From assembly GCA_029834535.1 (NCBI GenBank), contig JAQMWT010000019.1, positions 1-64,000 of the forward strand: DNA of 64,000 nt, written 5' to 3'. Below, in pieces: positions 2,014 to 55,261 of this stretch. Source of the DNA: Chrysophaeum taylorii (Eukaryota; Sar; Pelagophyceae; Pelagomonadales; Pelagomonadaceae). The position numbers were made by a program, and so were the translations under genes. The notes beneath the pieces are model-generated. The model worked only from the letters and a program-made list of their open reading frames with translations. It ran no database searches and was not told where the DNA came from. How positions within the stretch are numbered: the first letter of the stretch is position 1; every line of letters starts with the position of its first letter.

Positions 2014-3639
2014 TTGGATTCTGCGGCGATGATGCATACTTTAGCAGATGACCATTACTCGGTCGAGAAATTACGTTATTACTACGGTGCATCTACGGGA
2101 CCTGTTGCACCAATTTTTGAGGACCACTTGCAGAAATACGAGGAGCTCTGCGATGAGCTACCGCACGGTCCGTCGTTTTACTTGATTGGTGATGACGGTG
2201 AAGAGCATGGAGCCTCGGTTCGTCGCATCCGTCGTCTTAATAAGACGCATTGCGATAAAATTCTGGATTATTTTAGATCGACTTGCCGACCTCCGCGCAC
2301 GCAGCAGGAGCTGCTCGACAAGCTGCGGAAGGTCACCCAGGCTTCAGTTCCGAATAAGTCCGGGGAGCGGCACGTCCAGACGTATTGTACCAGATTCCAA
2401 TCGGAAGCCTTGGAGTTTTGTTCCGTGTCCAGCCGCACGATGGATGATGTCGATGTCCTCGACCAGCTTATCAGTGGGTTGACATCCAAGGAGTTGAGGA
2501 CCCGTGTGCGGACTATGAGGAGCGGACATCCTGATAGTTACTTGACTTTCAAGTCGATGGTGGCGCTTATCGCGCGGCTCGAGAACGACTTGCGAAAGTT
2601 GATGGAGGAGGAGAAGGACCAAGGCCCTCCTAATCCGAAATCGAATAAACCGCTGCGAGGGCGGGGAGGTCGAGCTATGGCCTCCGATCAACAAGCCAAG
2701 CAAGATGCGGATAAACCGTCTGGGAATACGGATCCGCTGATCTTACGAGATCCTTTTTTGTGGTGCAAGAGGACGTGCAAGGACTGCGGATTCTTCTGGA
2801 CCACCCATGATGAAGATGAACACGGAAATCGCGTGGTTTGCAACAGCGATCCGGATCGTTATTACTGTGTGATGTGGAAGCGATTTCGCAAGCAGAAGAA
2901 GCAACCCACATCGCGCTCCGATTGGGCGAAGCGTGACGATGCATCTCATGCGAACGCCACGCGCGGATCGGAGCCTTCTAATGAAATTCAAATGGCCCTC
3001 ACCGATCTTGGAACCACAATGGCGACCATGGTGAGCGAGGTCAGAGGCATCAAGGATAGCCAGTCGTCTTCTACACGACAGCGAGACGGACGATCACCTT
3101 CTAGACGATCGTCACGCCGACATCGAAGCCAGAGCCCTGATCGAAAGGCCAATACTCCTCGAACCAGCCCGAGTCCCCGTCGTCGCCGGAGTTCTAGTCG
3201 CAACTCGCGCCGGCGCCGACGTCATCGACATCACGATGACGAATACGACGGAGGCCGATATCAGGATAGTTCGGGACATTCGAGCGCAACTTTCGCGTTC
3301 CAATCTTTATGCGACGCGCCGCCATCGTCGGGAGTTGTCTTTTACCCGACGGCGCGCCCCGTTCGAGTCTCCGATGATGTTGTCGATGTCGCTGTGACGA
3401 GCAGCCATCGTTTGCAACAGGAGCAAAATACCACCAACGCTCGGATCGTTCGGTGGCCTTCTACATCGTATGTGGGAGCAATATCAGATGCTACTTTGGA
3501 TTCTCCGCACTACTGGGAAGACTCAGATTCGGAGACCGACGAGCCCATGCCGCAGGTTCCAGTGTCCCCCCATTCGTCAATGTGCATGTCTCGCAGGGCA
3601 GTTCACGACGATGGCGTTAGACCTTTTGAGTTGACGTAG
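2014..3639 (+). pseudogene. G1 gag (capsid, zinc-binding and RS-rich region), ends at a premature TAG
   Basis: Open frame with an in-frame ATG at 2029; the true N-terminus is lost. Capsid-type region at about residues 40-200. It is followed by a putative zinc site, C-x2-C-x6-H-x4-H (CKDCGFFWTTHDEDEH), where other gags carry a CCHC knuckle, and then an arginine/serine-rich tract (about 3080-3240) resembling an SR-protein RS domain. The TAG at 3637-3639 falls at the position where G3 reads a sense codon in an ELTSGTT context, and the same frame resumes beyond it, so gag and protease were one polyprotein. Expected role is nucleocapsid assembly and RNA packaging; the RS tract's role is unknown. 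Confidence 0.85.
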
Positions 3640-5340
3640 GGGACGACGTCTTCTTTTCCTACGGGGCCCCCCGAGACCGTTTTAGCCGATGTTTTAGCCG
3701 ATACAGTTTTGGTCGCAGCAGAGCAGACCACAGCGGCGCCGATGGAGGAGAAGTTGACGGGAATTACCGATTTGATGGACGAGAAACGACGATTGCCAGA
3801 AGAGATAGAGGAGGAAATATATGTGCCTCCGATTGAGAAGTGTCAGAATTTGTTGTCATCGAAACTGGGGAATGAGGAAGCAGCCGAAGCGGCGAGCGCC
3901 AATATAGATTCAGAGGCGAGATGTGGAACGCCAGATATGGCAGCGGTGACGATGCAGATGCCGGGCGATGCGAAACCGGAGATACGATGTCATCACACTG
4001 CACTTTCGCCGAGCGATGGGGAAAAGATCGAGCAAGACCTCATCACCATCGGTTGTTTGGACCCTGGTACACTTACGTTTATAGTTGGTCATATTTATAG
4101 ACGACGAGACGGGCCGGAGTTTGCAACGACTTTGGGCGTGGATGGAATGGCTGATGTCTCCTATATTTGTCGTGGGATGGTCGAAAAACTGGCAAAGGAT
4201 AGTATCATCCTTGACCGGGGCGATCTTCCAGTCGAGCGCACCTTGTACGGGTCAGGATTGAATAAGACGACTATCCACAAATGGGTCGCATTGCGGATTG
4301 CGCTCGCGGACGACGTGGCCGTTCCAGTTGTTGCCATTGTGGCCGATACTAATCATCTATTTTTGCTGGGAGCGGGCGATATTCGGGTGTTGGGAGCCAT
4401 AGTGGACTACCCGCGAAATCGCATTGCGTTTCTCCGTACACAAGTTGCTTATGGGCGCAAGAAGTTAAAGGTGCAGGATCGACGAGACGATTCTCCGATT
4501 TTGACGTTCAGAACAACTTATGACGAGCGCAACCCCGCGGTAGTTCAGGTTTATGGGCAACAGCACCATGCGATGCAAAAGAGCCTGAGCACAGTTGAGA
4601 GCCGAGTCTACGCTCGCTTGTGCAAGATTGAAGACCTCCAGCGTCCACCGCCGAAACGAGCGGGAGCTTCGACGACTTGGGGAGTCCCTACAGTTACGCC
4701 TTCTCAAAATTCGAACAGCGATGCTCATGAAGTGATAGCCTATGCTGCGCGCACGATGATGGTCGAGCCTGGGCGCACCTACTGCGTGCCAGTCGCTCTT
4801 TCAGAGCCCATGGAAACCGGGCAAGTTTTCGTTGCTACGTCTTCTGGGTACGAGCAACTCGGGGTCGTCGATGGAAGGTGTTCTTCTCCTGAGGATCATG
4901 ATAAGTTCGCAGCTCGAGTGGCGATATCCTCTACCCAGGATGTGCCGACCGTGATTACTCAAGGTGAAGTTCTCGCTTTGGGCGATATTGTTCGTTTTAA
5001 TGACGAGCTGAATGCTGAGACGGTCGACGATTTAACGAAGGATGGTGAAGCCGAATCTAACAAGGCTAACCTATCATTCACTGTTTCGGTCGCAAGCCAT
5101 CTGACTCAAGGCGGTGCGGCTCCTGAACCGATGCTTTTGAGCTCGGTGCAGAAGGCGCCTCCTTCTGCCGATAAGAAGAAAAATTATCGTCAAGAATTGT
5201 TCGGTAACGACGATTTCGACCGACGAACTGACGAGGAGGAAAAGAAACGCCGAGAAGTTACAGAAGGCGAGATTCGCCGAAGGTTTGAAAAGGTCCACTG
5301 GGTGCCGATCACGTATCGCAAGGTTGTGATGCTCTTTTAG
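3640..5340 (+). pseudogene. G1 aspartic protease and linker, up to methyltransferase motif I
   Basis: Same frame as gag beyond the TAG. The retropepsin-like segment lies at about 4050-4440. Its active-site region reads VDGMADVSYI, with D-G-M-A instead of the usual D-[ST]-G-A, and a later FLLGAGDIRVLGA segment matches the second half of the fold. Identical VDGMAD in G3 argues that the variation is not random decay. A long linker with a beta-rich section (EPGRTYCVPVALSEP) follows. The frame stops at 5338-5340 because of one extra T within methyltransferase motif I (VVMLF then stop; G3 reads VVMLCSGAGG). Confidence 0.8.
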
Positions 5341-6392
5341 CGGCGCCGGAGGAAGTACTTTAGGACTGCAACGAGGGAACGAGTTGTGCGGGGCGCCGTT
5401 TCGAGTCGTCCTTGCGCTTGACTCTTCAATAGCTGCCAACAAGGTTCATCAGAAGAATTTTCCGAAGATACCTGTTGTTCAACACACGCTCTGCGGACGA
5501 TATGACTCGACCCTCCGATTGATCAAGGCTTATGTGCCTGAAGCGGAATGGTCATAGTCGACGTGTATAGCGTCTCCATCCACCCTGCGTTCATTCAGCA
5601 CCTGCAACTTGACATCCAGAGATGTTGGAAGGGGTGTTACGGCCACTAACTGGACGATGAAGCTGTGCAAAATGGCTAGCTTCATGATGTGGCTGATTGA
5701 ACAGGAGGCGTCCATTATTTCTTATATAGCGCGTTTGCACCCTTATGTGTATGCCGTCAATTTCCATGATATCACGCCCACTCTGATGAGCTCTCGCGTG
5801 CGATTGTTGGTTTCCAGTCACCCACTGCATTTGCAAAAGGCACCGAAGACATGTTTGAACATGCAACAAAAATTTGCTGCAGCTTTAGGTTATGCTCATG
5901 AACGCCACCTGCTCCAGCCGAATAATCTCGGCTCGTCCCGAGATGCAACAGATACGGCTTACACCGTTACGCGAGTTCCTCTTCGTTTGGGACCGCATCG
6001 CTCGGACACTCAGCCTTTGACTCTCGAGATGACGGCCGAATTGGTCACGATGCCGGTGGATCATGATTGGGCTAGCTTGTCTAAGACAGACTCGTTCAAA
6101 CATTTAGCGTCTGTCGTCCCTCCAGACACTCTCGCGGTTTTAGCAGTCGATCTGCACAACTCCGTGACAAGAGGTTTCCACCAAAGTGGCGAAGTCCTGC
6201 CGACCGCGCTGAGCCCGACAGATCGATCCTTTGAGCAGTATTTGCGAATCTCCGACACCACCTTCGTCACGTACAGATTCCGCAGTTAAATCGTGTCGTT
6301 AAGTGGGTGTCAAAAGATGATCTCCAGGATTCCACTAAATGGGAACCGCCAGAAGTCCCTATGCTTCCGCTTCCAACAGATGCGCCGGGGAC
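5310..6392 (+). pseudogene. G1 C5-cytosine methyltransferase-like domain, inactivated
   Basis: Motif I is readable after a one-base shift as LFSGAGGSTLG. The segment equivalent to G3's PPPC catalytic motif (about 5560-5590) is disrupted by a stop and a small indel, so the catalytic Cys is lost. From 5609 the frame is open to 6289 and contains the IEQE segment (motif VI), SSRVRLLVSS (motif VIII) and the motif IX/X region (VPPD around 6115). A frameshift near 6265 precedes the LINE insertion. The family would methylate DNA cytosine; this copy cannot. Confidence 0.8.
6337..6392 (+). repeat. Target-site duplication, left copy (56 bp)
   Basis: Repeated at 6629-6684 with two mismatches in 56 bp. 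The two copies bracket the LINE fragment exactly, next to its (TAAC)n tail. Confidence 0.9.
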
Positions 6393-6628
6393 TAACTAAC
6401 TAACTAACTTCGGACCTCTCCCGGGCATGGGAGCCAGGCTGGGCCGGCAGTAGCCGGTCCAGGATCACAGAGCAAAAATCACACAGTTGGGGTAGAGGCG
6501 AGGGATGAAAGGGCGTGGATGGCGGACCGCCACTGCGCGCGGTCTTGTGCGAGGTCGTGCCACGAGTTGAAGGGGATGTCGCATTTCCGGAGTGCCTTGG
6601 CGAGCGACCTCCCGTACGTCATCTGCGG
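6393..6628 (-). mobile_element. S1: 5'-truncated LINE 3' end
   Basis: On the minus strand the insert ends in a (TTAG)n-type tail, seen as TAACTAACTAACTAAC at 6393-6408. Minus-strand translation gives a short C-terminus with WHDLAQDRAQWRSAI and a stop, a typical end of LINE reverse transcriptases of the w..lAqDR..WR type. The last about 70 bases before the tail match SINE copies S2-S5. It is flanked by a 56-bp duplication and lies between the methyltransferase-like and RT regions of G1. Confidence 0.85.
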
Positions 6629-6684
6629 AAATGGGACCCGCCAGAAGTTCCTATGCTTCCGCTTCCAACAGATGCGCCGGGGAC
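6629..6684 (+). repeat. Target-site duplication, right copy (56 bp)
   Basis: Second copy of 6337-6392; gypsy coding sequence resumes after it and continues to the C11 run. Confidence 0.9.
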
Positions 6685-6704
6685 GGCTCATGCTTTTTCT
6701 GCTG

Positions 6705-6715
6705 CCCCCCCCCCC
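6705..6715 (+). promoter_or_regulatory. C11 run at the -1 frame change in G1
   Basis: Eleven C residues. Upstream coding (…FSAAPPPDNQ) enters in one frame; the RT-IN frame (…VDVPPDPE) leaves in the -1 frame. G3 has the same run and the same shift at 51490-51500. Candidate recoding site. Confidence 0.6.
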
Positions 6716-8940
6716 GACAATCAAAAGTGGACGTTCCCCCGGATCCTGAACCTGAACAGGAGCCGAAAGTAAGGAGCGAGCCGAATGTGCGCGTCAAATG
6801 TGAAAAGATCAATAAGAGCCACCCTGAGGCGAGGTTCAAATACGAAGAAAAGCTCGATGTGCCATGGAAGGATGCGCCGCGCGATGCGGACGGTGTACCG
6901 TTGCCGCAGACTCCCGAGCACGTCAAGGACAATGGTGCGATGAAAGTCGTAATTCCGACGAAGGAAGAAGTCGAAAAGGTTGTTCGAGAACTGGGAATTC
7001 CCGACAACCCGCATCTGGATGATGATGCGAAGATGATGTTGAGCCACTGCGTGCAATACGCGTGGGCTTTCTTTGATCCGATTATGAGACCCGTGGACTC
7101 GCCACCGGTTTCTCTACGATTTAAAGACGCAAATCCACGGCCGATCAAGATGACGCCTTATAGGTTGACGCCAGCAAAGCTCGATTGTCTCAGAAAGCAG
7201 ACCACTGAGTGGTGTCGCGATGGAGTCATCCGACCGGCGAACTCTCCGTGGGGATTCCCAGTACTTATGCTGCCTAAGAAGGGAGCAGAGGCCGGGACGT
7301 CGAATGCTTTTCGTGCTGCAGTTGACTTGCGTCAGCTCAATGATCAGCTGGTCAATGACAGTTGGCCGAATATTCGTCAAGATGATGCTTTGGCTTATCT
7401 TGCCATGCGCCGTTGACGGACGTGCATTGATATTCGATGGGGTTATCATAACCTACGTTTGGACGCCGCTGCTCAGGACGCCGTTACGATGGTTAGTCCA
7501 CTTGGAGCCCATAGTTTCTTGCGCTTGCCTCTAGGGGTAAAAACAGCAGGAGCTCTCTTTTGTAAGCAGATGGCTAGCGATTTGTCCACATGGATGTATA
7601 AGGACTTGGTCGCGTTTGTCGACGATATTATGATGGGATCGGATGAACACCACCGACATTTGCAAGTTTTGATTGAAGTGTTGTGCTATTTAGCGCAGCG
7701 AGGATATAGTGGACGAACTTCGAAGTTCCACCTCCTCAAGGATGAAATCGAGTTTTTGGGACATATTCGACTCCGGAAGGCTTGAAGCCGAGTCCCAAGA
7801 CGTTAGAAGCGTTGCAGCAGATGCCGATTCCTGGTACGTTGCCTAATACGTCCCCGAAGACCCAGATTCGATCTTTCATTGGCATGAGCAACTATTGCCG
7901 CCGATATGTGAAGAATTATTCGAAGATTGTGGAGCCGCTTAGGTGATTGTGTCTTGAAGGCGTTAAGTTTGAGTGGACGCCTGAGTGCCAAAAGGCATGG
8001 GACACGATCATCGAAGCTCTGGTGGACTCTAGCGGAGTTAATCATCCTGACTACGATCTTCCTTTTCAGATCCGCTCGGATGCTTCCAAGGATGGTCTGG
8101 GCGCGTATCTTTTTCAACTCGTGGAAGTCAAGACGAAACCGGCAATGTGACACGAGAGGGGCGAGTAATTGAGCATTGGAGCCGAGCTGTGCCGAAAGAG
8201 ATGTGGAACTATGAGCCTCGCCGGCTAGAGCTCCTGGCAGTTATTCTTTCTCTTGAGCATTTCCGCTCTTATATCGAAGGTCACAAGACGACCCTTGAAA
8301 CGGATCGTCGCAACTTGACGTTTTTACGAAAGGCGAAGCACTCGTCTGGGCAGTTGGCTCGATGGGCGATGCGGCTCGCCAACTTTGATCCTGAATTGGG
8401 TTACAAACCAGGGAAGTCGCCGGGAATGAGTATCCCTGACTGTATCTCTCGCAATCCTATAGATCGTGTCATCGAGACGGACGAGTTTGGTGAACCCTTG
8501 AACCACGCGTATCTAGTGTGCCAAGAACTTCCTCGCCCTGTCGATGATGAAGGTGTACCTTTACCTGGGTGCCATGTCATTCTGTCGTTTGTTACGACTG
8601 AGTTGCTTGTGGAGGAAGAGGACGAGGACCTCGATGATCCGATGCAATTGGTCACGTCTCATGCTACGAAACAACGGCAGAAGCAACGTCTGCAGACCCA
8701 GCCTAGTATTTTCCGTGATGCCGATGATTACCAAGAGTACATCGACAAGATTCCGGATAATTTGACTTTGGAAGAGATAGCCAGAGAGCAGATCACGGAT
8801 GCTACATGCGAGGACATTCGTTATCGCATGGCTCAGGGCCATTCTCTTCGTCGGTACGGAGCCAATTATCGCTATCAAGTGGTGAAAGGAGTTCTCTACC
8901 GTGCCGCACCTGACTTGCACCCGATGATAGTCGCACAAAA
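6716..8940 (+). pseudogene. G1 reverse transcriptase and RNase H, broken
   Basis: RT motifs are recognisable: AAVDLRQLN, then LPLGVKTAGALFCKQM and the catalytic FVDDIMM around 7620. RNase H follows with IRSDASKDGLGA near 8090 and LETDRRNLTF near 8300. Lesions against G3 are a TGA for the first W of RRWWTCID (7414-7416), a one-base loss near 7768, a TGA near 7942 and a shift near 8140. Normally copies genomic RNA into cDNA; not functional here. Confidence 0.9.
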
Positions 8941-10455
8941 ACTTTACGGACGCGCATCATCCGATTGTACCATGACACACCGCTCAATGGTGGTCACATG
9001 GGTCGTCAAAGTACAGTGCAGTCGACACTTGAACGTTTTTGGTGGCCCCACATGTCTAGTGAGGTGGGTGCTTACATTGCTGGTTGCATTGTGTGCAAGA
9101 ATGCTCGTACGCCTGAACCAAAGAGAGCAGGTCTGCTTCAGCAACCGGTGTATAATGGTGATTGCGCCGTCCTTTGTGTGGATTTGTTCGGACCTTTGCC
9201 CAGTGCTGGTCCCGAGACATATCTGATCATCTTTTTTGATCCATTTTCTCATTTCTTGATTCTTTACGTACTACACCATAAGACTGCTGAGTCAATCCTC
9301 AGGTCTCTTGTCGCGAATATATTACTCAAAGGTTATCTACCTCAGAGGATTCGTACCGACAATGGGAAAGAGTTCGTCAACAAGTTGATGGAAGAGTTTT
9401 GTCATCTCTTCAATGTTCGGTATAGTACCAAGATTCCGCATCATGCTCAGGCTAATCCTGCGGAAAGGGTCAACCGCTTTATCAAGGCTTTCCTCCGTGC
9501 GTGCCTTCAAAACCGCAAGATCACGGAATGGCCCGAATTCGCGGAGTACATTGCTTTTTGCTACAATCGCAAGTTTATTCCGGGAACTCAGATCTCACCT
9601 TTCATGCTTCGTCTTAACCGGCAGCCTTTATTGCCAACCGATTACACGATTATGGATCTTGATGTCCGCCGCCTGCCGAAAACTCGCTCCGATGTTGTGG
9701 CAGAGACTCGCGAGAGGCTGAAGTTCTATACCGCTACGGTGAACGAAGCTCGTGAGAAGGTTATTCGTAAACAACGTCTCGCCTACAATGCGGACCATGT
9801 CGATGTGGAGTATGAAGAAGGTTCACATGTTCTGCTCTACATCCCTTTTCTTCAGAACAAGCTTCGACCGGAATGGCGCGGTCCATTCGTTATTTTGGAA
9901 CGCTTGTCCCCGGTCACTTACAGGATTGAGTCTCTTGATTCTCCTCCTGAACGCCGATGTGTTCATGTTAGCCAGATCACCCCTGTGGTGGTTTCTCCAG
10001 TGGTCGATCGAGCTGTGCCCAAGCCCGAGAAGACCTTTCGGGATGATTACAAGCATAGGAAGTTCGTTATCTTTCGGATTCCGGATAACAAACGGTCCGA
10101 TTGGCGAAAGAAGATTTACGTCGCTGAAGTTTATGAACCCTATGATTTTGTGAATGATCGAGTCGCTCTGCATTTCTATGCTGATCTTGGTCCCCATGAC
10201 AAGGTTTCTTATTACAAGCCTACCTCACATCTCTCTACTCGCAAGCTTAAGCCGGAATACAAGGACGTGGACGGTCGCAGTTTCACCGACAAGACCAAGG
10301 TCAACAACAGTACCACTCCTTGTGTCACCGACTTCGCCCCGCATGAGATCGATGTGTTGATTCCTAAGTTCACTTTGCGTGGTGGACGCGTTCCTGAACC
10401 TGTCGTTGAACGTGTCTACAAGAAGATTCGTTCCCGAGACGCTCATTCAGCCTAG
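8941..10455 (+). pseudogene. G1 integrase (C-terminal part of pol)
   Basis: Largely open frame after a shift near 8940. It contains the zinc-binding region (H…GGH…C-x2-C: CIVCKNAR), the DDE core (CVDLFGP, IRTDNGKEF, NPAERVNRF) and a GPF-type C-terminal module (LRPEWRGPFVI). About 200 further residues follow, shared with G3, with no chromodomain that I can recognise. Normally inserts the cDNA into host DNA. Confidence 0.9.
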
Positions 10456-10512
10456 GCTCGTGATTCTCGCCGGACTCGCTGAGGGCAGCTCGTATTCTCG
10501 CCAGGGGAGTCC

Positions 10513-10834
10513 TGTGGCGGCAACTCCTGACCGCTAAGACTTACCCTCCTTTCTCGAGGCTTAATGCCCGTTCAACGGGACGCCTTTCCCCACCTTCCTG
10601 GTGACATCATACCTCTATCGTGTGAGAAGCATTCTTGCGGTATTCTTGTAGCATTCTTGCTATCATATACCATCTCTCCATCTTGTTGAGAGGCTTGGTG
10701 AGCGTGAGCAAGGTATGTGGCGAGCATACCCGACCCCGAGTCCGTGTTTTCTTCGTTCAGTGAGGTCTAGGGCGAGTCGGTGAGTACCCCCTTTGTCACC
10801 CGGGGGTCGGGAGTGGTTTTTCTGTGCCGCCATA
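10513..10834 (+). repeat. G1 3' LTR
   Basis: 322 bp partner of 503-822, preceded by the purine-rich AGGGGAGTCCTG shared with G3 (polypurine tract region) and followed by the duplicated target CCTGC. Confidence 0.9.
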
Positions 10835-10839
10835 CCTGC

Positions 10840-12040: not shown

Positions 12041-12078
12041 TGACGTCATCCATCCTCGGACCCTATCAGCGTGACTCA
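12041..12078 (+). promoter_or_regulatory. Two bZIP-type sites upstream of chorismate synthase
   Basis: TGACGTCA (12041-12048, CRE palindrome) and TGACTCA (12072-12078, AP-1/GCN4-type site) lie about 120 and 90 bases before the first in-frame ATG. A 14-codon upstream ORF (12040-12084) overlaps both. In yeast, Gcn4 binds TGACTCA at aromatic amino-acid genes; a parallel here is inference. Confidence 0.4.
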
Positions 12079-12161
12079 GACTAGGGTCTAGATTCAGACC
12101 TTGGGGTGTGCTGTTGTCCGTGGGTTCGTGTGGAAGTCGCTGTTTTTGTATCGTGTGTGCC

Positions 12162-13394
12162 ATGTTCATGTGGTTGGTGTTTGGGTTGGTGAGGTGTTTT
12201 GGTCGAAACTATCGGATTTCGACCTTCGGGGAATCACATGGTGTGGGGGTGGGGGTTGTCGTCGAGGGGTGTCCCCCGCGTGTCCCGTTGAGCGTGGGGG
12301 TGATCCAGCGCGAGTTGGATCGGCGTCGGCCGGGGCAATCACGGCTGACGACCCCCCGCAGCGAAGACGACGTCGTGGAAATTTTGAGTGGCGTTGTGGG
12401 AGGTCGGACGCTGGGGAGCCCGATTGGGTTGTTGGTTCGCAACACGAACCAGCGGTCAAAGGATTACGACGAGATGGGTCAGGCGTACCGGCCGTCGCAT
12501 TCAGATGCAACTTACGACGCCAAGTACGGCATGCGGGCTATCGCCGGTGGAGGACGGAGTTCGGCGCGCGAGACCATCGCGCGTGTCGCAGGCGCAGCGG
12601 TAGCGAAACAGATCTTGCGGATGTATTGCGGGTGCGAGATCGTCGGGTATGTTAAGCAGGTGCAAGACGTCAAGATGCCGGAGGACGTGGGGGGTATCGT
12701 CACTTTGGAGATGGTCGAGGCCTCGATCGCTCGGTGTCCGCATCCCGAAACGTCCGACCGCATGATTGCTCGGATTGATCAAATTCGGAAAACAGGAAAC
12801 TCGGTTGGGGGTGTAGTCGAGTGCGTTGCGACTCACGTCCCGCCGGGTTTGGGCTCGCCCGTCTTCGACAAGCTAGAGGCTGATCTTGCCAAGGCGTGCA
12901 TGTCGCTTCCCGCCGCCAAGGGCTTTGAGATCGGCTCGGGTTTTGATGGAGTATTTCTTACGGGGATTGAGCACAACGACGAGTTTTTTGTGGCTGAAGA
13001 TGGCCGTGTTCGTACCAGAACCAACCGAAGCGGCGGCGTTCAGGGAGGGGTCTCTAACGGCGAACCTATCGTCATCCGTGTCGCCTTCAAACCCACATCG
13101 ACAATCGGCAAACTTCAAAACACGGTTACTCGTGACGGCAAGCCGACTCAATTACGGGGCAAAGGCCGCCACGACCCTTGCGTCCTTCCTCGCGCTGTTC
13201 CCATCGTGGAGGCTATGGTTGCCTTAACGCTCGTCGACGCCCTCGCCACACACCACGCCCAATGCGGCCTTCTGCACTTTCCCGACGACCCAAATTTTCC
13301 ACCTCTCGGACAAAAACCGAAGCATTACCCAGGCCGAGTCCCACCACATATCCTACTCAATATCGATGAAGAAGACGCCAAAGACGACTACTAG
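12162..13394 (+). CDS. Chorismate synthase
   Basis: 410-residue enzyme converting 5-enolpyruvylshikimate-3-phosphate to chorismate, last step of the shikimate pathway, using reduced FMN. All three family signatures are present: [17 protein letters not shown] near the N-terminus, [18 protein letters not shown], and [17 protein letters not shown]. The FMN-site segment [10 protein letters not shown] is also present. [14 protein letters not shown] resembles plant and cyanobacterial enzymes, and no flavin reductase domain is fused. The first in-frame ATG after the upstream stop (12072) is 12162, leaving only about 13 hydrophobic residues before the conserved GRNYR. A plastid transit peptide, if any, would need an unseen 5' exon. 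No intron is visible in the body. It is the only clear host gene here. Confidence 0.93.
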
Positions 13395-13613: not shown

Positions 13614-13622
13614 TATCCGGGA

Positions 13623-13996
13623 TTTTATTCCTTACCCTGATCGCCGACTGCGGTTGCGATGGTGGACGGTGCCTCATGAATCCTGAGCCTTGCGAGGGCA
13701 TCCGCCCTCCCGGCGTAGGTTGGCACCTATTCGCCTCCCGGGCGGGCCGGTTGGCAGCCGGAACGTTCGCAGTGGGACGGGGTATGGCCGGGGGGCGAAG
13801 ACGGAAGGTTATCGGCGAGTTGGTTGTCAGTCACATCGCGGTCTCCTCGTCGCATTGCGACAAGCTTGATGGTCACTCTCCGCCGACCGACCTTTCGGCG
13901 CTCCTCGTCTACAGGCCCGTGATTCCGGACTGGCTCCTGTCGGTCCGGCCTGGCTCCCATGCTCGGGAGAGGTCTGAAGTTAGTTAGTTAGTTAGT
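13623..13996 (+). mobile_element. S2: SINE
   Basis: 374-bp member of a family also at 38250-38614 and 43124-43489, with a diverged relative at 60241-60646. It ends in a GAAGTTAGTTAGTTAG-type tail and is flanked by the 9-bp duplication TATCCGGGA (13614-13622, 13997-14005). The 3' about 70 bases match the LINE fragment S1, so mobilisation by that LINE is likely. I could not identify convincing pol III A and B boxes. A minus-strand 77-codon frame recurs in the copies but only reflects repeat identity. Confidence 0.85.
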
Positions 13997-20833: not shown

Positions 20834-20838
20834 CAGGG
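20834..20838 (+). repeat. Target-site duplication CAGGG of copia A, left
   Basis: Identical to 32516-32520 on the other side of A. Confidence 0.95.
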
Positions 20839-21152: not shown

Positions 21153-21166
21153 GGTTATGGGCCCAG
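21153..21166 (+). other. A primer-binding site (initiator tRNA-Met anticodon stem-loop)
   Basis: GGTTATGGGCCCAG directly follows the LTR. Its complement CTGGGCCCATAACC is the anticodon stem-loop of eukaryotic initiator tRNA-Met, the primer type used by Drosophila copia (a 5' half-tRNA). Confidence 0.88.
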
Positions 21167-33954: not shown

Positions 33955-33963
33955 AGATGAGTG

Positions 33964-38614: not shown

Positions 38615-38622
38615 TTGCGATT

Positions 38623-43111: not shown

Positions 43112-43123
43112 GCATGGGGGTGT

Positions 43124-45151: not shown

Positions 45152-45487
45152 TGTGGCGGAAACTCCCGCCACCTAAGGCTTACCCCTCTTCGAGGGCCCC
45201 CTCTTATCAGGGGCACCCTACTCCGTCATGATGATGTCAGTTTTCTTTATGACATCATCTTCCTTTTCCGTGACATGTGTCACCCTGGTTTCTGTGATTC
45301 GATAATATCTTAATCACAAAGCAACAGCCGAACCTCAAGTTGCGAGGACCAGGCACGGAGGTTGTTTGTGGTTGTGTGGCGGGAGAACGGCCATCCTCGT
45401 CCAGTGACTCCATCAAGGCCACGGACGCGAGCGGCGAGCCAGGATTCGAAGGCACGCCAGGTAGGCCTAAATTCTCCTTACGTCACA
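45152..45487 (+). repeat. G3 5' LTR
   Basis: 336 bp; an imperfect hairpin lies near its start (TGGCGGAAACTCCCGCCA) and a TGATGATGTCA...TGACATCATC pair at about 45230-45258. Confidence 0.93.
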
Positions 45488-45489
45488 GG

Positions 45490-45512
45490 TGGTGGAGGAA
45501 TACGAGATTCGA
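45490..45512 (+). other. G3 primer-binding site
   Basis: TGGTGGAGGAATACGAGATT then CGA, two bases after the LTR. The complement ends …TCCTCCACCA and contains TCGAATCTC, as a tRNA 3' acceptor plus T-arm does. The tRNA identity was not determined. Confidence 0.7.
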
Positions 45513-45949
45513 GCGACCATGTCGGTCGCAGCGGACGAGTGCATCTTGCATTCTCTACATGGTCCGGACAAGCCGTGCGCGCCCTGATCAAGCGCGCCGA
45601 CGAAGAGTTCCAGGAGGACCACTGCCGTGGGAAAGTTCCCCGGCCGGATACGTTAGTCGTCGGATGTGACGACGCGCGATTCGGTTCTAGCCGACGCGCA
45701 ACCCGGGTACCGCTGCCGCAGGCGAGCGGAGTGAGATCGCAACTCACTGAGGCATTGATTGCCGGGCAAAGACGAATTCTGCCGCCCGCCGGACTGATAG
45801 ATCGGTCGGTGGAAGACGCGCGCGACGACGATATTACGCGTGTCGTGGACGAGTAGAAGTCCCAGAGTCGAAGGAGCACGAGAACGACGACGACTCAACC
45901 ATTTTGGACCCGCTCTGATCTCGGCCGACTAGAACGAGCCAGAGCCGAT

Positions 45950-48900
45950 ATGGAAGACGATGATGCTGCCGACGAGCAGACGCGATACGACGAACCGCCA
46001 CGCCGTCAGGATGAGACGAGCGAGAGGAATGATGATGATGATGATGATGAAGAGCACGACACTGAAGTTGACAACGAGGAAGAAGAACTAGACTACAACA
46101 CCGGCGAACCGACGGAGAGACCGTCGGGAGGACGACCGACAGCCCCGTCAACGCGTGCACGACCCCCGGACGCAACGAGAATGAACGAGTTCTACGAGGC
46201 TCATTTGCGGGCGCTACGGGAAGAAAACGAACGTTCGCAGGAACGACTGTTACAACAAATAGCAGAAGAAAACGATCGAAAGGAACGGCTACAACGGAAG
46301 GAGGCCGGAGAATTAAGAGAGCAAGTGCGGAGGGCCAACGCTCGAGTAGACGACCTCCAAGATCAAGTAAATTCGCTGACCCGAGAAAGGGACGAGCTAC
46401 GTGCGCCGAGTCGATCGAGGCGAGCGAGCAGCCCGGGGTCCCGAGCTGAGGAAGAGCCGTCAACTACACGATCACGCGCGAAAGCTAGAAAGCCGCGCTA
46501 TGAAGACGACGATTACGAAGAAAAGGAGGAGACGCGTGGCGACGGAAGAATCAACAACCAAGAGTTTTTGATGGTTTTCACGGATCGGTTCGCCAGCGCG
46601 TTAGCCAAACACGATCGCAACAAGGATCGGCGATCGACCTCCGGATTAAAAATCGAAACTTTTAAACTTGTTCTTGATGGACGCGACCAGGACCAGTTCG
46701 ATTTAGATGCGGGCGCGGTGATGAGTACGTTAGCCGAAGACCATTTTAGCATGGAGAAGCTGCGGTACGCGGTACCTGTTGCCCGCGAGCCTGCGCGACA
46801 CAGTCGCACCAATTTTTCGAGAACACTTTAAGAAGTACGAAGACCTATGTAAAGATCTCGATCACCCAGCGTCTTTTTATTTACGTCGGGATATCGACTA
46901 CGAGGAGTATGGTTCAGTGGTACGACGATTACGACGACTGAATGAGAAGTACTGCCTCAAGATTATAAGATACTTCCGGGAGAGTTGCCCATTGCCGATG
47001 ACGGTAGAAGTATCGCTACGAAAATTGCAAGGCACGACCCAAGCGACCGTTCCGAAACGATCCGGGGAGCGCCACGTGCATACCTACTGCATAAAATTTC
47101 AGAAAGAGGCTATGGCGTACTGCTCTGTGGCCAACCGAGATCTCAGCGACGTAGAGATCATCTCTTACTTGATGCGTGGACTGGAGTCCAGCGAATTGAA
47201 ATCCCGCGTGCGAACCATGCGCAACGGGCACCCGACGACGTATGAGACGTTTACGTCTACGTTGTCATTGATTACACGGCTCGAGAACGATTTCGCAACC
47301 GCAATGGCGGAGAAGAACAGCCGAAATTCAACGAATCCGTCGGGCGGGAAGCCGCAGAAGCCACCGTCTGGACGCGGAGGACGGGCGCTCGCCTCGGGAA
47401 CGAAAGATAAAACGACGAAATATGAGGCACTGCGTCTCGAAGATAATCCGAAAAGGTGGTTCGAGAGCACATGCAAGGAGTGTGGGTTTTTCTTAACGAC
47501 CCACGACAAGGATGAACACGGGAACCGGGTCATTCGCAACCGCGAGCCCGACGACTATTATGTGGCGATGTGTAAGTATATCGAAGACGGAAAAAAGCCC
47601 ATCTCTCGGGGACGATGGGAAATCCGACAAAAGAAAAATAATCATTCGCGTGACGACGGCAGTTCCAATGCCACCCTCGGTTCGAGCGCTGCTCACGATA
47701 TTCAGAGCAGACTCAACGATATGGGCACGCAGCTGACCACGGTTATGGCTTCCGTGAAGCACTTGAAAGATGGACACGGCCGATCGTCTTCGACACGACC
47801 GGGCCGTCGAGATAGCCGGAGCCCCCGACGCCGCGACAAGAGCCGTAGCAGCTCGCGCCCGCGCCGACGGAAAGACAGCCGGAGCTCTAGCAGACATTCA
47901 CGCCGCCGCCGGCGACGAAGATCTCGCGATCGAAATTCGGACGATGGTCGTTACCGGGAAGACTCGGGACATTCGTCTGCAACGTTCGCGTTTACGACCC
48001 CTTGCGGTCAACAGTTACCATTAGGAGTGATGGTGTACCCGAACACGGACACCAGCACCGACGACGCAGCCGACGCCCTTGCCGCGGCCGCATTCGACGA
48101 TCTTACTCGCCCGCAGATGGACGAGCCACCCAACGACGTGCTGACCAATCGTCGGTCTTTGGCACAGATTTATGAGGAGATGTCGAGCGATGAACTCGAA
48201 GATTCGAGCGATGACCTCGAAGCTCCACGATACTGGGAAGGCGATTCAGATTCGGAAGATGAAGAAGCTACACCTTGTGAACCAGTGTCCGCGATAACGT
48301 TACTTGACGAGTCGTCCACGGACGACGCACCGTTTGTTTTTGACGAGGAAGCCCTCGGCGCTATCGGCTTATGTTTGGACCCTCCAGAGACGACCCTCAG
48401 CGGCCGAACTGTCTGTGAGCCAGACATGGATTTCTGCAGTGATAGCTCGGATGATCATTCGACGGACGAGACGATGACCATCGCGAGTGAAGCAGACGAC
48501 GATCTTACGATAGAGTTGACGTCGGGGACGACGCCATCTTTTCCTGCGGACCCCCCCGAAACGGTTTCGGTCACGACGGATCGAGCCACGGACACGCCGC
48601 CGGAAGAAAAGGATAGATTTAAGAAGAAGATTAGCAGCGTTATGGATTGGGACGAAGACGAGCCGACGTGGAACCTGCAAGATTGGTGGACGAGAACTCG
48701 GAACTTCTTGATAAAGAAGCCACCAGAACAACCGCTCAGCTACGGACTCGAAGCCGCAGCCGACACGGAACCGATCGCCGATGATGGTGATGATCAACCA
48801 ACGACGAATGAATCTACGGATGCGTTATGGAAAGACGAAATGGCTGAGTTATGCAAGAGGTCCTTTGCTTCCGAGAATAGCGAAGATCGGGATCCCCTAC

Positions 48901-51617
48901 CAGCACTGATTCCCTCCGAGCTTGTCTTGGAGGAAGAGCGGAAGCCGCCAGATAAAGAGGCTGCCGCGAGCGTTACGTCGATGACGCCAACAACGGATGA
49001 TACGAGAGCCCAAGCCACGGTATCGATGCCCAACCCCGGAGATGAGCGAGTCAGAGCCCAATGTGCTCACACTTCGTTGACGCCGCGAGATGGCAAGACG
49101 ATCGAAGATGATTTGATTACCCTGAGTTGTTTGGATACGGGTACTCTTACGTTTATGGCCTGTCACATCTACAGGAATCGCGACGGACCGAAATTCTCGA
49201 CGACAATCGGTGTCGATGGAATGGCAGATGTTTCTTATATTTGCCGAGAAATGGTCAGAAAGTTGGCCAAAGATAAGTTGATTTTCGATGAAGGCGAACT
49301 TCCGATTAAGCGTAAGCTGTACGGATCGGGGTTGAATACGACGACGATCTTTCGTTGGATCGCGATTCGGGTCGCCCTCGCCGACAACATCGCCGCTCCC
49401 ATTGTCGCTATTGTGGCCGATACAAACTATCCGTTCCTGTTGGGAGGGCGCTATATACGAGTTTTAGGAGCCGTCGTGGACTACCCCCACGATCGGATCT
49501 GTTTTTATCGAACCCAAGTCGTATACGGGCGCAAGAAGATTAAAGTCGAGAATGAACGAGTCGATGCACCCATCGTGACCTTTCGATCTATTCACGATCG
49601 AGACCCGATAACCGTGCCGAATTACAATCATCAACACGATGCCTTTCGGAAGAGTCTCGACCTGGTCAAGACTCGAGTTTACGCTCGTTTGAGCACGATT
49701 AAAGATCTCCGAAGCCCGCCGCCGGAACGAACGTTAGCCTTGGCTACGCGGGGACATGCTACGACGAAATTCTCCCCAGCTCCGGGAGAAGACGCGCGAG
49801 AAGTAGTGGCTTACGCTGCGCGCACGCTTCAAATCGAGCCCGGTCGAACTTACAATCTACCGGTTATTTTGTCGAAACCTATGGAAATGGGACAGGTTTT
49901 CGTCGCTACGTTTGCTGAGAACGAGCAGCTGGGAGTTGTCGAAGGAATGTGTTCTTCTTGCGAAGAGCACGACCGATCCGCTGCTCGGGTTGCGGTTACT
50001 GCCGCGGAAGAAGTGCCGACAGTCGTCACTCGAGGCGAAGTCCTTGCGATTGGCGATATCGTTAGGTACGAAGATGAGTTGAGCGTCTCTACGATCAACG
50101 AACTGACGAACGAATGTGAACAAGGATACGACAAGGGGAACCTTTCTTTCACCGTTTCCGTCGCTAGTCATTTGACGCATTGCGACACTTCTCCCCCGCC
50201 GATGTTGCTGAGAACGGCGCAGAAGGACGCTACGACCGCTATTGCGGACCAGTCCTCCCTCAAACGGCCCGAAGGCGACGACGATTTCGTTCGACGGTCG
50301 GAAGAAGATGAAAAGACGTGCCGCGAGATCACCGAAACAGAGATCCGCCGCCGATACGAAAAGGCTCGATGGCTTCCAATCACTTATCGCAAGGTGGTGA
50401 TGCTGTGCAGTGGAGCCGGAGGCAGTACTTTAGGTCTCCAACGAGCCAACGAAATGCGTGGGACGTCGTTTCGAGTTGTGCTAGCACTCGATGCGTCGGA
50501 TACCGCCAACCAGATCCACCACAAGAATTTTCCAAATACTCCCGTGGTGCAGCACACACTCTGTGGTCGCTATGGTACAACCTTACGGTTGATCGAATCT
50601 TATTTACCCTACGCGGAATGGTCGTCGTCGATGTGTATCGCGCCGCCACCCTGCGTACACTCCGCTCTGTGCAACTTGACTTCCAGAGATGTTGGGAAGG
50701 GAGTCACCGCGACCCACTGGACGATGAAATTATGCAAGATGGCTGGTTTCTTCATGTGGTTAATAGAGCAGGAGGCCTCGATTATTTCTTACGTTGCACG
50801 TTTGCACCCTTACGTGTACGTCGTCAATTTTGACGACATAACGCCCAGTTTGATGAGCTGTCGCGTGCGATTGTTGGTTTCCAGCCATCCGCTCCATTTG
50901 CGTGCAGTTCCAAAGACTTGCAAGAATATGCAGCAAGAGTTCGCCGCCGCGCTTGGCTACGCCGACGAACGACATTTACTTCAGATGAACAATTTAGGAT
51001 CATCACGAGCCGCGACAGACGCAGCTTATACCGTTACGCGTGTCCCGCTTCGCGTAGGACCGCACCGTTCCGATTGCAGATCTCCGAATCTGAAAATGAC
51101 TTCGGAGTTGCTGACAATGCCCCTTGATTTTGATTGGGCCGGCTTCTCCAGGACGACCTCGTTGAAACACTTGGCGTCCGTCGTGCCACCAGACACGATG
51201 ACCTTATTAGTTCTCGATCTGCACAACTCTGTGACCAAGGATTTTCACTTGAGCGGCGAAGCTTTGCCGTCGGCGTTGAGTCCTGCAGACCGACCGTTTG
51301 ATTATTTTTTGCAAATTGATGAAACCACCCTTCGTCACGTACAAGTTCCGCTGTTAAACACGCGCACACGTGTCGTAAGATGGGTATCTACTGATGATCT
51401 CCAAGATCGCACCAAATGGAAACCTCCAGATGTACCGTTGATTCCGCCTGCAACAGATGAGCCGGGGGCTTCTCATGCTTCTTCTGCTGCCCCCCCCCCC
51501 GACAACCAAATTTGGACGTTCCGCCAGATCCTGAGCGAGATCGGGAACAGAAGATTAAGAGCGAGGCGAGTGTTCGTGTCAAAGGCGAGAGGATCAACAA
51601 AAGCCACCCGGAAGTGA
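45950..51617 (+). CDS. G3 Gag-protease-methyltransferase polyprotein (one internal frameshift)
   Basis: ATG at 45950 (MEDDDAADEQTRYDE). Acidic N-terminus, coiled coil at about 46190-46420, then a one-base shift near 46770, after which the frame is open to 51617. Capsid (46800-47300), zinc-like C-x2-C-x6-H-x4-H (CKECGFFLTTHDKDEH, 47472), RS-rich tract (47780-47930), acidic linker. Protease at about 49080-49530 with VDGMADVSYI and FLLGGRYIRVLGA. A beta-rich linker (EPGRTYNLPVILSKP) precedes the methyltransferase domain. Normal role: particle assembly, maturation and probably DNA methylation. The C-terminal 40 codons after 51500 are read only if the ribosome does not shift at the C11 run. Confidence 0.85.
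50376..51330 (+). other. G3 C5-cytosine methyltransferase-like domain
   Basis: Within the polyprotein, uninterrupted. Motif I: KVVMLCSGAGGSTLGLQRA (CSGAGG at 50406-50423). II: FRVVLALDASDTANQIHHKN. IV: CIAPPPCVHSAL, catalytic Cys at 50652-50654, with V where Q is usual. VI: MWLIEQEASI, Glu at 50766-50768, exactly 38 residues after the Cys, the spacing of HhaI (Cys81-Glu119). VIII: SLMSCRVRLLVSSHP. IX: LKMTSELLTMPLDFDW. X: LKHLASVVPPDTMTLLVLDL. All motifs are in order at family spacing. PCQ to PCV and ENV to EQE changes may affect activity, but Cys and Glu are kept, and G1 keeps EQE too. Confidence 0.85.
51490..51500 (+). promoter_or_regulatory. C11 run at the -1 frame change in G3
   Basis: Upstream frame reads S-A-A-P-P-P-D-N-Q; RT-IN lies in the -1 frame (…DVPPDPERDRE). 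The downstream frame has no early ATG. Same run length and shift as G1 (6705-6715). Confidence 0.65.
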
Positions 51618-53527
51618 GACTAAAATATGAGAAAAAGTTTGATGTGCCATGGAAAGATGCGCCGCGCGATGCTGAGGGTGCACCGCTGCCGCAAACTCCT
51701 GAGCATGTCAAGGACAACGAAGCAATGAAAGTTCAAGTTCCTACGAAGGAGGAAGTTGACAAGGTTGTTCAGGAGTTGGGAATTCCTGACAATTCGCACT
51801 TAGATGACGATGCGAAATTGATGCTCCGTCACCGCGTGCAATATTCGTGGGCCTTTTTCGACCCGATTATGAGATCTGTGGACTCGCCTCCTGTGTCTCT
51901 ACGATTCAAAGACGCGAATCCGCGACCGATTAAAATGACGCCCTACCGATTGACGCCTGCGAAGCTCGATTGTCTCCGCAAGCAGATCAGCGAGTGGTGC
52001 CGAGATGGAGTCATTCGTCCGGCCAACTCACCTTGGGGCTTTCCTGTGTTGATGCTTCCGAAGAAAGGAGCTGAGATTGGAACGTCAAACGCGTTCCGTG
52101 CTGCAGTTGACTTACGTCAGCTCAACGATCAATTGGTCAATGACAGTTGGCCGAACATTCGACAAGATGATGCTTTAGCTTTTCTCGCTATGCGACGATG
52201 GTGGACATGCATTGATATTAGATGGGGATACCACAACCTTCGTCTGGATCCGGCACCGCAAGACGCTGTCACGATGGTTAGCCCACTTGGCGCTCATAGT
52301 TTCATGCGATTACCTCTAGGTGTGAAGACGGCCGGAGCTCTTTTCTGCAAGCAAATGGCGAGCGACCTTTCGAAATGGATGTATCGAGACTTGGTTGCGT
52401 TTGTTGACGATATTATGATGGGATCCGACGATCTTCATCGACATTTACAAGTTTTGATCGAAGTGATGTGTCATTTGGCACAGAGAGGGTACAGCGGTCG
52501 AACCGCGAAGGTCCACCTTCTCAAGGATGATATAGGATTTCTGGGACACATTTCGACCCCGGAAGGCTTGAAGCCGAATCCGAAGACGCTGGAAGCACTG
52601 CAGAAGATGCCGATTCCAGGTACTTTACCGAATACTTCCCCGAAGACCCAGATACGCTCTTTCATCGGCATGAGTAATTACTGCCGGCGATATGTGAAGG
52701 GCTACTCGAAGATCGTGGAACCGCTGAGACGATTATGCCTCGAAGGTGTAAAGTTCGAATGGACGCCCGAGTGTCAGAAAGCCTGGGATACGATTATTGA
52801 AGCTTTGGTTGATTCCAGAGGAGTCTACCACCCCGATTGTGATCTGCCTTCTCAGATCCGATCAGATGCTTCCAAGGATGGACTTGGAGCGTATCTCTTC
52901 CAGATTGTCGAAGTCAAGGACGATGCCGGAAGAGTGACTCGAGAAGAACGAGTGATTGAATATTGGAGCCGAGCTGTGCCGAAGGAGATGCGCAATTATG
53001 AGCCCCGTCGGTTAGAGCTGCTGGCAGTTATACTTTCTCTAGAGCACCTTCGAGCCTACATCGAAGGGCACCGTACTGTTTTGGAGACCGATCACCGAAA
53101 TTTGACGTTTTTACGTAAGGCGACGCACTCGTCTGGGCAGCTTGCTCGTTGGGCGATGCGCCTCGCCAATTTTGACCCTGAACTTGGTTACAAGCCGGGA
53201 AAGTCACCGGGGATGAGCATCCCTGACTGTCTCTCTCGCAATCCGATAGATCATGTCATCGAGACTGACGAGTTTGGAGAACTTTTGAACCACGCGTATT
53301 TGGTGTTCCAAGAGCTTCCCCGGCCTGTTGATGACAGAGGAATCCCCGCCTCCGTCTGCCACTTCACAATGTCGTTTGTTACGACCGAACTGCCGGAAGA
53401 CGAAGACGAAGACCCTGAAAAGGATCCGATGAAATTGGCTACGTCTCACGCTACGAGACAACGTCGGAAGAACCGTGCGCGCGATGAGCCGCAGATCTTC
53501 AAGGACGCAGCCGCTTACAACGATTAA
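51501..53527 (+). CDS. G3 reverse transcriptase and RNase H
   Basis: No ATG near its start; expression is expected by -1 shift at the C11 run. RT: YRLTPAKLDCLRKQ, SPWGFPVLMLPKKG, AAVDLRQLND, WTCIDIRWGYHNLRL, GVKTAGALFCKQM, catalytic LVAFVDDIMMGSD, FLGHISTPEGLKP, FIGMSNYCRRYVKGYS. RNase H: IRSDASKDGLGAYLF, RRLELLAVILSLEH, LETDHRNLTF. The frame ends at a TAA (53525-53527) where G1 has a Tyr codon in an EYIDKIPDN context, a single nonsense change. Confidence 0.93.
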
Positions 53528-55261
53528 ATCGATAAGATACCCGATAATATGACGCTCGCTGAGATCGCACGTGAGCAAGAATCTGATGCTACTTGCGAGG
53601 ATATTCGCTACCGAATGGCCCAAGGTCAGACGCCGCGACGTTCCCGAGCGAACGAACGATTCGAAGTTGTTAAAGACGTCCTTTACCGCATTTCTGCCGA
53701 TTTGCACCCGATGATTGTTGCACCTGCTACGTTGCGCAAGCGCATTATTCGACTCTGCCATGACACTCCGGTTAACGGTGGTCATATCGGACGTCACAGT
53801 ACGGTCCAGGCTATCCAAGAACGATTTTGGTGGCCCCACATGTCGAACGAAGTTGGAGTCTTCATTACTGAATGTTTAGTTTGCGAGAAAGCTCGTACGC
53901 CTGAGCCGAAGCGAGCTGGACTCTTGCAACAGCCCGTCTACGATGGTGATGGCGCTGTTCTCTGCATGGATTTATTTGGACCCTTGCTCAGCGCTGGTCC
54001 CGAGACGTATCTTCCAGTGTTTTTTGATCCGTTCTCGCATTTCTTGATTCTGGATGTTTTGAACGATAAGACTGCTGCGTCCGTCCTCGAGTCTTTTGTC
54101 ATTAACATCCTCCTCAAGGGCCACTTGCCCCAGATGATTCGCACCGACAACGGTAAAGAGTTCGTGAACAAGTTGATGCGCGAGTTTCGCCATCTCTTTA
54201 ACACACGATACCAAACTACGATTCCTTATCATGCCCAGTCGAATCCGGCTGAACGTGTTAACCGATTTATCAAGGCCTTCCTCCGTGCTTGCCTTCAGGG
54301 CCGGAACATCACGGATTGGCCCGACTTTGCTCATTATATTGCGTTTTGTTATAACGGCAAGTTTATTCCAGGCACGCAGATTTCTCCCTTTATGCTGCGC
54401 CTGAACCGCCAGCCGATGCTGCCTACTGACTACACGCTTATGGATTTTGACACGCGATTGTTGCCGAAGACTCGCTCTGATGCAGTCGCCGAAACTCGTG
54501 AACGATTGAAGTATTATACGAAGATCGTCCGCGAAGCTCGTGATAAAGCTTTGAAGAAACAACGACTGGCTTACAATGCTGATCATGTTCATGTTGAATA
54601 CAAGGAAGGATCGCACGTTTTGTTCTATATTCCTTTCCTTCAGAACAAACTTCGACCGGAATGGCGCGGCCCGTTTATTATCAAGGAACGCCTTTCCCCG
54701 GTCACCTATAGGATTGAGTCTCTCGACTCTCCGCCCGAAGAACGACGTGTTCATGTTAGTCAGATCACGCCTGTGATGGTACCTTCGATCGTTGATCAAA
54801 CCATCCGCAAACCCGAAGAAACCTTCCGTGATGATTATCAGCACGGCAAGTTAGTTGTTTTCCGGATTCCTGACCGGAAGCGCTCTGATTGGCGCAAGAA
54901 GATTTATGTTGCCGAAGTTTACGAGCCTTACGATTACCAGAATGATCGTGTTGCTCTAAATTTATATTCCGATTTGGGTCCGAACGATGATGTCGCTTAT
55001 TTCAAGCCGACCTCTCACCTTTCGCACCGCAAACTCAAGCCCGAGTTCAAGGGCGTCGAAGGTCGCAGTTTCACCGACAAGTCCCGGATCTCATCCAACA
55101 CAACTCCTTGTGTCACGGATTTCGCTCCGCATGAGATTGATGTGTTGATCCCCAAGTTTACTTTACGCAGTGGTCGAGTTCCTGAACCGATCATCACCCG
55201 CGTTTATCAGAAGATTCGTTCACGAGATGCTCGTGAGGCGAAGCCGCGCTCCTCGCGCTAG
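53528..55261 (+). CDS. G3 integrase
   Basis: Same frame as RT beyond the TAA. Zinc-binding region (LCHDTPVNGGHIGRHSTVQ…CLVCEKAR), DDE core (CMDLFGPL, MIRTDNGKEFVNKL, NPAERVNRFIKAFL) and GPF module (LRPEWRGPFIIKERL). About 200 C-terminal residues with FRIPDRKRSDWRKKIYVAEV, conserved in G1, may bind chromatin; I do not recognise a chromodomain. Ends in a basic tail just before the 3' LTR. Confidence 0.93.
   Translation: MDKIPDNMTLAEIAREQESDATCEDIRYRMAQGQTPRRSRANERFEVVKDVLYRISADLHPMIVAPATLRKRIIRLCHDTPVNGGHIGRHSTVQAIQERFWWPHMSNEVGVFITECLVCEKARTPEPKRAGLLQQPVYDGDGAVLCMDLFGPLLSAGPETYLPVFFDPFSHFLILDVLNDKTAASVLESFVINILLKGHLPQMIRTDNGKEFVNKLMREFRHLFNTRYQTTIPYHAQSNPAERVNRFIKAFLRACLQGRNITDWPDFAHYIAFCYNGKFIPGTQISPFMLRLNRQPMLPTDYTLMDFDTRLLPKTRSDAVAETRERLKYYTKIVREARDKALKKQRLAYNADHVHVEYKEGSHVLFYIPFLQNKLRPEWRGPFIIKERLSPVTYRIESLDSPPEERRVHVSQITPVMVPSIVDQTIRKPEETFRDDYQHGKLVVFRIPDRKRSDWRKKIYVAEVYEPYDYQNDRVALNLYSDLGPNDDVAYFKPTSHLSHRKLKPEFKGVEGRSFTDKSRISSNTTPCVTDFAPHEIDVLIPKFTLRSGRVPEPIITRVYQKIRSRDAREAKPRSSR

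Follow-up and report, generated by a model that had tools for sequence, protein, structure and literature searches.

Methyltransferase-like domains in one slot of Ty3 and copia retrotransposons: homologues of C5 cytosine methyltransferases, probably acquired twice

How did retrotransposons of two superfamilies come to carry a methyltransferase-like domain in the same slot of their polyproteins? The question is raised by a window of 64,000 nucleotides (contig C19, positions 1-64000, of a 70.8 Mb genome in 697 contigs) that is crowded with retroelements. Three families found in it, the Ty3 (gypsy) lineage G and the copia lineages A and B, encode a homologue of C5 cytosine methyltransferases (C5-MTases) directly downstream of a protease-like motif and upstream of the next pol enzyme, which is the reverse transcriptase (RT)-RNase H in G and the integrase in A and B. 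The common denominator of the three layouts is the gag-protease/pol boundary. In the reading that we favour, with a probability of roughly 0.6, the domain would have entered copia once, in a forebear shared by A, B and C (C is introduced below), and been inherited vertically from there, the Ty3 lineage would probably have gained its own domain separately, and the gag-protease/pol boundary would be a permissive insertion point. A permissive boundary would account for the common slot with no need of exchange between the element classes.

The Ty3 element G2 (45152-55638, forward strand) is bounded by long terminal repeats (LTRs) at 45152-45488 and 55302-55638, 95.5% identical in self-BLAST, and by a 5-bp flanking repeat (GCACT, read by eye at the LTR ends). 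An open frame at 46734-51617, taken from the list of open reading frames (ORFs), holds the gag region, a protease-like motif (49209-49253) that opens a protease-like region (GVDGMAD ... FLLGGRYIRVLGAVVDY; 49209-49484), both identified by eye only, and the methyltransferase domain (50388-51209). RT and RNase H (51461-53527; Pfam RVT_1 1.2e-11, RT_RNaseH 3.9e-24) and integrase (53528-55261; Integrase_H2C2 7.4e-17, rve 4.1e-9) follow. This order of enzymes, the paired LTRs and the flanking repeat identify G as a Ty3 LTR retrotransposon. An older Ty3 element, G1 (502-10838, forward strand; LTRs 502-826 and 10512-10838, 91.2% identical in self-BLAST), has a broken methyltransferase domain (5336-6154) with open pieces at 5336-5554 and 5603-6154.

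Copia element A (20836-32515, forward strand) has LTRs at 20836-21152 and 32200-32515 (96.5% identity, self-BLAST) and the 5-bp flanking repeat CAGGG (by eye, at the LTR ends). Its protease-like motif (YFDSCATIS, containing DSCAT; 23815-23862, by eye only) is followed by an in-frame TGA (24421-24423) located between the protease-like region and the methyltransferase domain (24463-26170), inside which the window copy changes frame. Downstream lie an integrase core (26646-27209; WACDGG at 26793; rve E 0.021, below cut-off) and a copia RT (28711-29382; Pfam RVT_2 1e-42). Copia element B, on the reverse strand at about 32.5-38.7 kb, is truncated and ends beside the LTR of A; no LTR pair was found for it within the window. 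It carries a protease-like motif (LIDGGASFCF, containing DGGAS; 38670-38720, by eye only), the methyltransferase domain (36104-37654, within the ORF 35630-38254), an integrase (34963-35904; rve E 0.0043, below cut-off) and a copia RT in two overlapping open pieces (32490-33963), 32-41% identical to that of A. An RVT_2-type RT downstream of the integrase, the copia arrangement, is thus present in both elements, the RVT_2 match of B (3.5e-5) being below cut-off. A further copia lineage, C (L085, L086; contig C483), is abundant, about half identical to A and carries a methyltransferase in the same slot.

The initial annotation had placed the domain after the protease and before RT (gypsy) or integrase (copia) in all three families. 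This holds, with the protease identified by short motifs read by eye, Pfam giving no protease match in any of the three pieces tested. It had also considered that the loci might be unique misassemblies, or that only one of the three domains might be a methyltransferase. The loci are not misassemblies, given that G2 and A have paired LTRs with 5-bp flanking repeats and the domains recur on many contigs, and profile comparison gave significant homology for A, B and G alike.

For this comparison a profile was made from 12 C5-MTases, ten bacterial or phage and two from the host. The A set comprised 11 of 14 loci (L079 and L080 were excluded because the motif was not found, L074 because its middle is missing), the G set 23 of the 24 usable copies among 29 loci and the window (L032 was excluded here and is present in the set used for substitution rates below), and the B set 12 of 29 loci plus the window, with 17 left out for interrupted or short frames. 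With hhalign, the A profile (five A/C rows, the frame-shifted window row excluded) matched at E 2.9e-5 over 163 columns, B at 4.9e-10 over 145 columns and G at 3.3e-9 over 78 columns covering motifs I-IV only; none of 300 column shuffles per family reached the score. For motifs IX-X, shuffles scoring as well numbered 0 of 500 for the second half of A, 26 of 500 for B (marginal) and 30 of 300 for G (no match). When domains were scanned singly, PF00145 was matched by 24 of 24 G copies (best 1.8e-6), 12 of 13 B copies (best 9.6e-9) and one of 11 A copies (0.025). It is the most-matched family in G and B, and in A is tied with UPF0259 at one member each. The G2 open frame matches PF00145 over residues 1221-1274 with 15 bits, below cut-off, and in the window neither the A nor the B copy matches Pfam over the methyltransferase domain. 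Below its cut-off, the dcm model of NCBIfam matched a single copy each of B (1.2e-7) and G (0.0011); it matched neither the A nor the C copy tried. PDB sequence searches with the domains gave weak or unrelated matches only, AlphaFold2 models of the G and A domains from shallow alignments reached a predicted local distance difference test score of 28-29, and scans of IMG/VR with G, B and A profiles yielded no confirmed relative.

Could one or more of these resemblances be due to chance? The near invisibility of A to Pfam and to PDB profile search would fit, but the shuffles just described, together with motifs that stand in the right order and register and are kept between A and C despite 45% divergence, largely refute this explanation, which we consider highly improbable. 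By these profile alignments, the A, B and G domains are C5-MTase homologues. The A, B and C series suggests that divergent element-borne DNA methyltransferases (DNMTs) may escape Pfam cut-offs, so surveys may undercount them.

How many acquisitions does the distribution imply? The domains of A, B and C are collinear, alike outside the shared C5 motifs and equal in layout and spacing, and RT and integrase are homologous among the three lineages. One capture suffices for copia because these domains appear to be homologous over a large part of their extent, and A and B probably derive, as far as their sequences tell, from one capture in a copia ancestor and not from separate ones. Three independent captures, by A, B and G under strong selection, are improbable: they would be in keeping with the low identity of the A and B domains (20-28% over the aligned parts), with the stretch preceding the domain, in which comparison found no A-B likeness, and with the different motifs VI (EM in A, ENV in B) and IV (TPPC and LPCQ), but not with the resemblance of A, B and C beyond the C5 motifs or with their homologous RT and integrase. 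The domain of G showed no specific likeness to A or B on comparison and is probably a second, separate acquisition; two acquisitions look likelier than three.

A phylogeny of the domains, proposed in the initial annotation, was computed as a tree whose only members of eukaryotic DNMT classes are the DNMT2-like enzyme and DNMT5 of the host. The best tree groups A, B and G (82/47, not starred) and A with G (49/43). In topology tests neither A+B (p-AU, the P value of the approximately unbiased test, 0.476) nor B+G (0.15) was rejected, and groupings with host enzymes gave 0.03 for B+DNMT5, 0.15 for A+DNMT5 and 0.29 for G+DNMT2; several branch orders are compatible with the data. A single capture overall, followed by a move between copia and Ty3 through template switching or recombination and by later loss of a long middle region in G, is a possible reading that we hold at low probability. 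It is favoured by the identical slot in all families, by the union of A, B and G in the best tree and by the LCSG of motif I and PPC of motif IV that A and the window's G have in common (by eye). Of the initial proposal, which saw either repeated captures under strong selection or exchange between element classes, the presence of homologues in one slot of Ty3 and copia elements and their low ratio of nonsynonymous to synonymous substitution rates (dN/dS) stand; three independent captures do not, A, B and C being alike along much of their length.

The genome-wide count envisaged by the initial annotation gave at least 141 places for G, 140 for B (fragments counted apart) and 150 for A, with at least 150 more for copia lineage C; the first-look candidates behind these places were 964, 565, 1028 and 877, respectively. 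A genome search with the G RT found at least 150 places, and at least 74 of the best 150 copia RTs are preceded, on their own strand, by a domain from the A or C list. Median dN/dS within the domain sets is 0.21 in A, 0.22 in B and 0.20 in G, counting only pairs with dS above 0.05 (55 of 55, 77 of 78 and 266 of 300 pairs), which points to purifying selection. Between the G1 and G2 domains dN is 0.13-0.17 and dS about 2 or saturated. With at least 140 places per family and a constrained domain, a role in the element life cycle is testable by biochemistry and by the host methylome.

The motifs, numbered by the C5-MTase convention, are placed as follows. In G2, motif I (VMLCSGAGG) lies at 50397-50435, the PPC motif within 50622-50663 and an RxR motif at 50856-50885. 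Element A has motif I at 24475-24525, TPPC within 24691-24732, AEM within 24829-24861, motif IX at 26007-26039 and motif X at 26106-26135. On the reverse strand, B has motif I at 37654-37616, LPCQ at 37432-37406, ENV at 37309-37283, SKTRY at 37177-37142 and motifs IX/X at 36235-36104. The Pro-Cys of motif IV is invariant in A (P87, C88); in G the Pro is invariant and the Cys nearly so (P94, C95), and in B it is the Cys that is invariant and the Pro nearly so (C87, P86). Motif VI is ENV in B (E127 and N128 invariant) and EM in A and C (E129 and M130 in A). In G the corresponding position reads VNF by alignment or IEQ by eye, its Glu being apparently lost or moved, and the domain is compact with a very short target-recognition region. 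Activity of G is uncertain on these residues because motif VI and the C-terminal motifs are doubtful, though PPC is kept.

How the domain would be expressed is best seen in A. In 12 of the 13 A copies that have the motif, the window copy among them, the frame is interrupted by a stop 18 codons ahead of the SVML of motif I (L077 has no such stop). It is TGA in all 11 copies in which the codon was read and is followed by CTA in five of them; TGA followed by CTA is a leaky stop context. The one C copy read has TGA 24 codons before LLCSG. The TGA upstream of the methyltransferase in A and C (L071-L084, L086) is a candidate site of translational readthrough. Both lineages fit a layout in which the stop that closes gag-protease is read through and pol begins with the methyltransferase, a separate ORF being possible; the stop kept in frame immediately ahead of the domain, in A and in the one C copy, is new here. 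At 24475-25065, 13 diverged A copies (69-84% identical) share the frame of the window copy through mid-domain, and 12 of them are open for 212-216 amino acids; they perhaps represent an inherited frame change or a split-ORF subfamily. The protease motif of B is in frame in 10 of 30 loci, with the frame open from motif to domain in five. Among 31 G copies examined, 24 show both motifs, and in 15 of these 24 the domain is in frame with RT. A programmed frameshift in G was dropped in view of this count, and because of it the offset between domain and RT in G2 is probably a lesion.

A mechanism can be proposed along these lines. In A and C, UGA readthrough would make the enzyme the first pol product; it would be freed by the protease and packaged with RT and integrase, and would then methylate new element DNA or, less likely, RNA. 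Such methylation might label or shield the DNA of the element itself, or adjust how the element is expressed later.

Does the DNA of the elements bear traces of methylation? The observed/expected ratio of CpG is 0.92 in A (21153-32199), 1.06 in B (32516-40214), 1.21 in G1 and 1.39 in G2, compared with 1.24-1.46 in three host stretches: A and B are lower than the host, G1 is slightly below it and G2 is inside its range. TpG+CpA is slightly raised in A (1.19) and B (1.11). There is a small copia-Ty3 difference in CpG content, A and B lying below the host and G close to it. CpG is not the most frequent context of C>T singletons in A, B or G, and transitions between paired LTRs in BLAST alignments fall at CpG in only 1 of 13 cases in G1, 0 of 7 in G2 and 1 of 8 in A. 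CpG decay was tested as a sign of self-methylation: neither singletons nor LTR transitions reveal CpG hypermutability, and the CpG ratios of A and B are below the host. The signs that the elements are methylated are thus weak and mixed, and the data do not establish the central role in the conflict between host and elements that the initial annotation suggested for DNA methylation. The missing hypermutability could be due to other sequence contexts, to weak deamination or to low activity.

The same observations bear on whether the domains are inactive S-adenosylmethionine-binding relics or structural modules that serve some other purpose, for example in assembly or in binding nucleic acids. 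The uncertain motif VI Glu of G, the weak motifs IX-X of G and B and the lack of a clear mutational footprint of CpG methylation agree with this view, but conservation of the motif IV Pro-Cys in all three families, of the motif VI Glu in A and B and of RxR in A, with dN/dS about 0.2, speaks against it, and we regard it as rather unlikely.

At least 57 genome places match PF00145 above cut-off, 123 of 474 candidates having been scored; 54 of the 57 overlap the B list (checked against 129 of its 140 places) and none corresponds to G or A. The three others are a DNMT2-like gene, DNMT5 and one unassigned place, and more host DNMTs may exist because 123 of the 474 candidates were scored. The best PDB match of the host DNMT5 is 7r76 (E 3e-143); downstream of the methyltransferase domain, its 2086-amino acid open frame (L002, contig C621) has a stretch that looks RING-like by eye. 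Scanning GTDB with the DNMT2-like protein of the host yielded no confirmed relative. One ORF resembling fucoxanthin chlorophyll-binding (FCP-like) light-harvesting proteins, recognized by eye, adjoins the DNMT2-like gene, and from it the host is probably an alga or other photosynthetic eukaryote; a 5.8S search gave no match. DNMT5 is a maintenance-only enzyme in Cryptococcus. If the host C5-MTases are DNMT5 and the DNMT2-like enzyme, the two identified among the PF00145 matches listed, retrotransposon enzymes might supply most of the de novo cytosine methylation, seeding a methylome that the host would then maintain, two superfamilies having taken up this part independently by insertion of the enzyme at the gag-protease/pol boundary and A and C expressing theirs by UGA readthrough; we consider this scenario distinctly unlikely.

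How do these elements compare with known systems? LINE (long interspersed nuclear element), DIRS and Gypsy elements carrying DNMTs have been published (PMC5890265). According to that paper, DNMTs of retrotransposons are capable of de novo methylation at CG, and newly retrotranscribed DNA was suggested to be self-methylated; by analogy, the enzymes of A, B and C could act in this way. The closest arrangement described there is KnitGypsy-Dnmt3 of Klebsormidium nitens (de Mendoza 2018, PMC5890265), a Gypsy LTR element that has a DNMT within its pol polyprotein and whose copies are, as here, under purifying selection (Ka/Ks below 0.2). Its domain is a recognisable Dnmt3 of a charophyte, with fewer copies than in Symbiodinium, whereas the domain here is far more divergent and the present genome has in addition a copia lineage with its own domain. 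Symbiodinium resembles our genome in having hundreds of DNMTs within retrotransposons (SymbioLINE-Dnmt, SymbioDIRS-Dnmt3); its elements are LINE and DIRS, and Copia there is, according to the paper, without any DNMT domain. Its host enzymes are Dnmt5, Dnmt6 and Dnmt2, with no Dnmt1 or Dnmt3 found among exon-rich genes. SymbioLINE-Dnmts have reduced CpG, while in the present genome a clear shortfall against the host stretches is confined to A and B.

A 2025 paper states that some DNMT3s are embedded in retrotransposons, "LTR Copia and DIRS" (PMC12344493), citing the 2018 work, in which the LTR element is a Gypsy; its accessible part describes no copia structure resembling A, B or C. Cytosine and adenine methylases of DAM and DCM type in Ty3/Gypsy and DIRS elements of many groups, stramenopiles and algae among them, were treated in an opinion paper that proposes a defence role for them (PMC6338049) and in whose available text, unlike here, copia occurs 0 times. 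An orchid Ty3/Gypsy element with an m6A demethylase domain (PMC9289625) likewise shows an LTR element gaining a nucleic-acid-modifying enzyme, in that case a demethylase, in one superfamily and in a plant. No description of copia elements with this arrangement was found in the open-licence literature. The novelty that the initial annotation claimed for this group must be narrowed: DNMT-bearing retroelements are known and the occurrence of some DNMT3s in Copia has been stated, and it is the copia layout of A, B and C for which the open-licence literature searched gave no counterpart. With our observations, the range of retrotransposon-borne DNMTs would come to include well-resolved copia elements and one more genome, in which two element superfamilies have the same insertion slot.

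The remainder of the window holds further repeats. A repeat of ~370 bp occurs at 13619-13993, 38242-38616 and 43117-43483 (about 98.6% identical, self-BLAST), the second copy sitting inside B between the protease-like motif and the methyltransferase domain. Another of ~0.9 kb, with short internal repeats (family D16), has copies at 40215-41121 and 59293-60238 that are 88.6% identical. Long open frames on the reverse strand at 56117-59290 belong, judged by eye, to an apparent non-LTR retroelement. An ORF at 12075-13394, which by eye resembles chorismate synthase, is the clearest host-like gene in the window.
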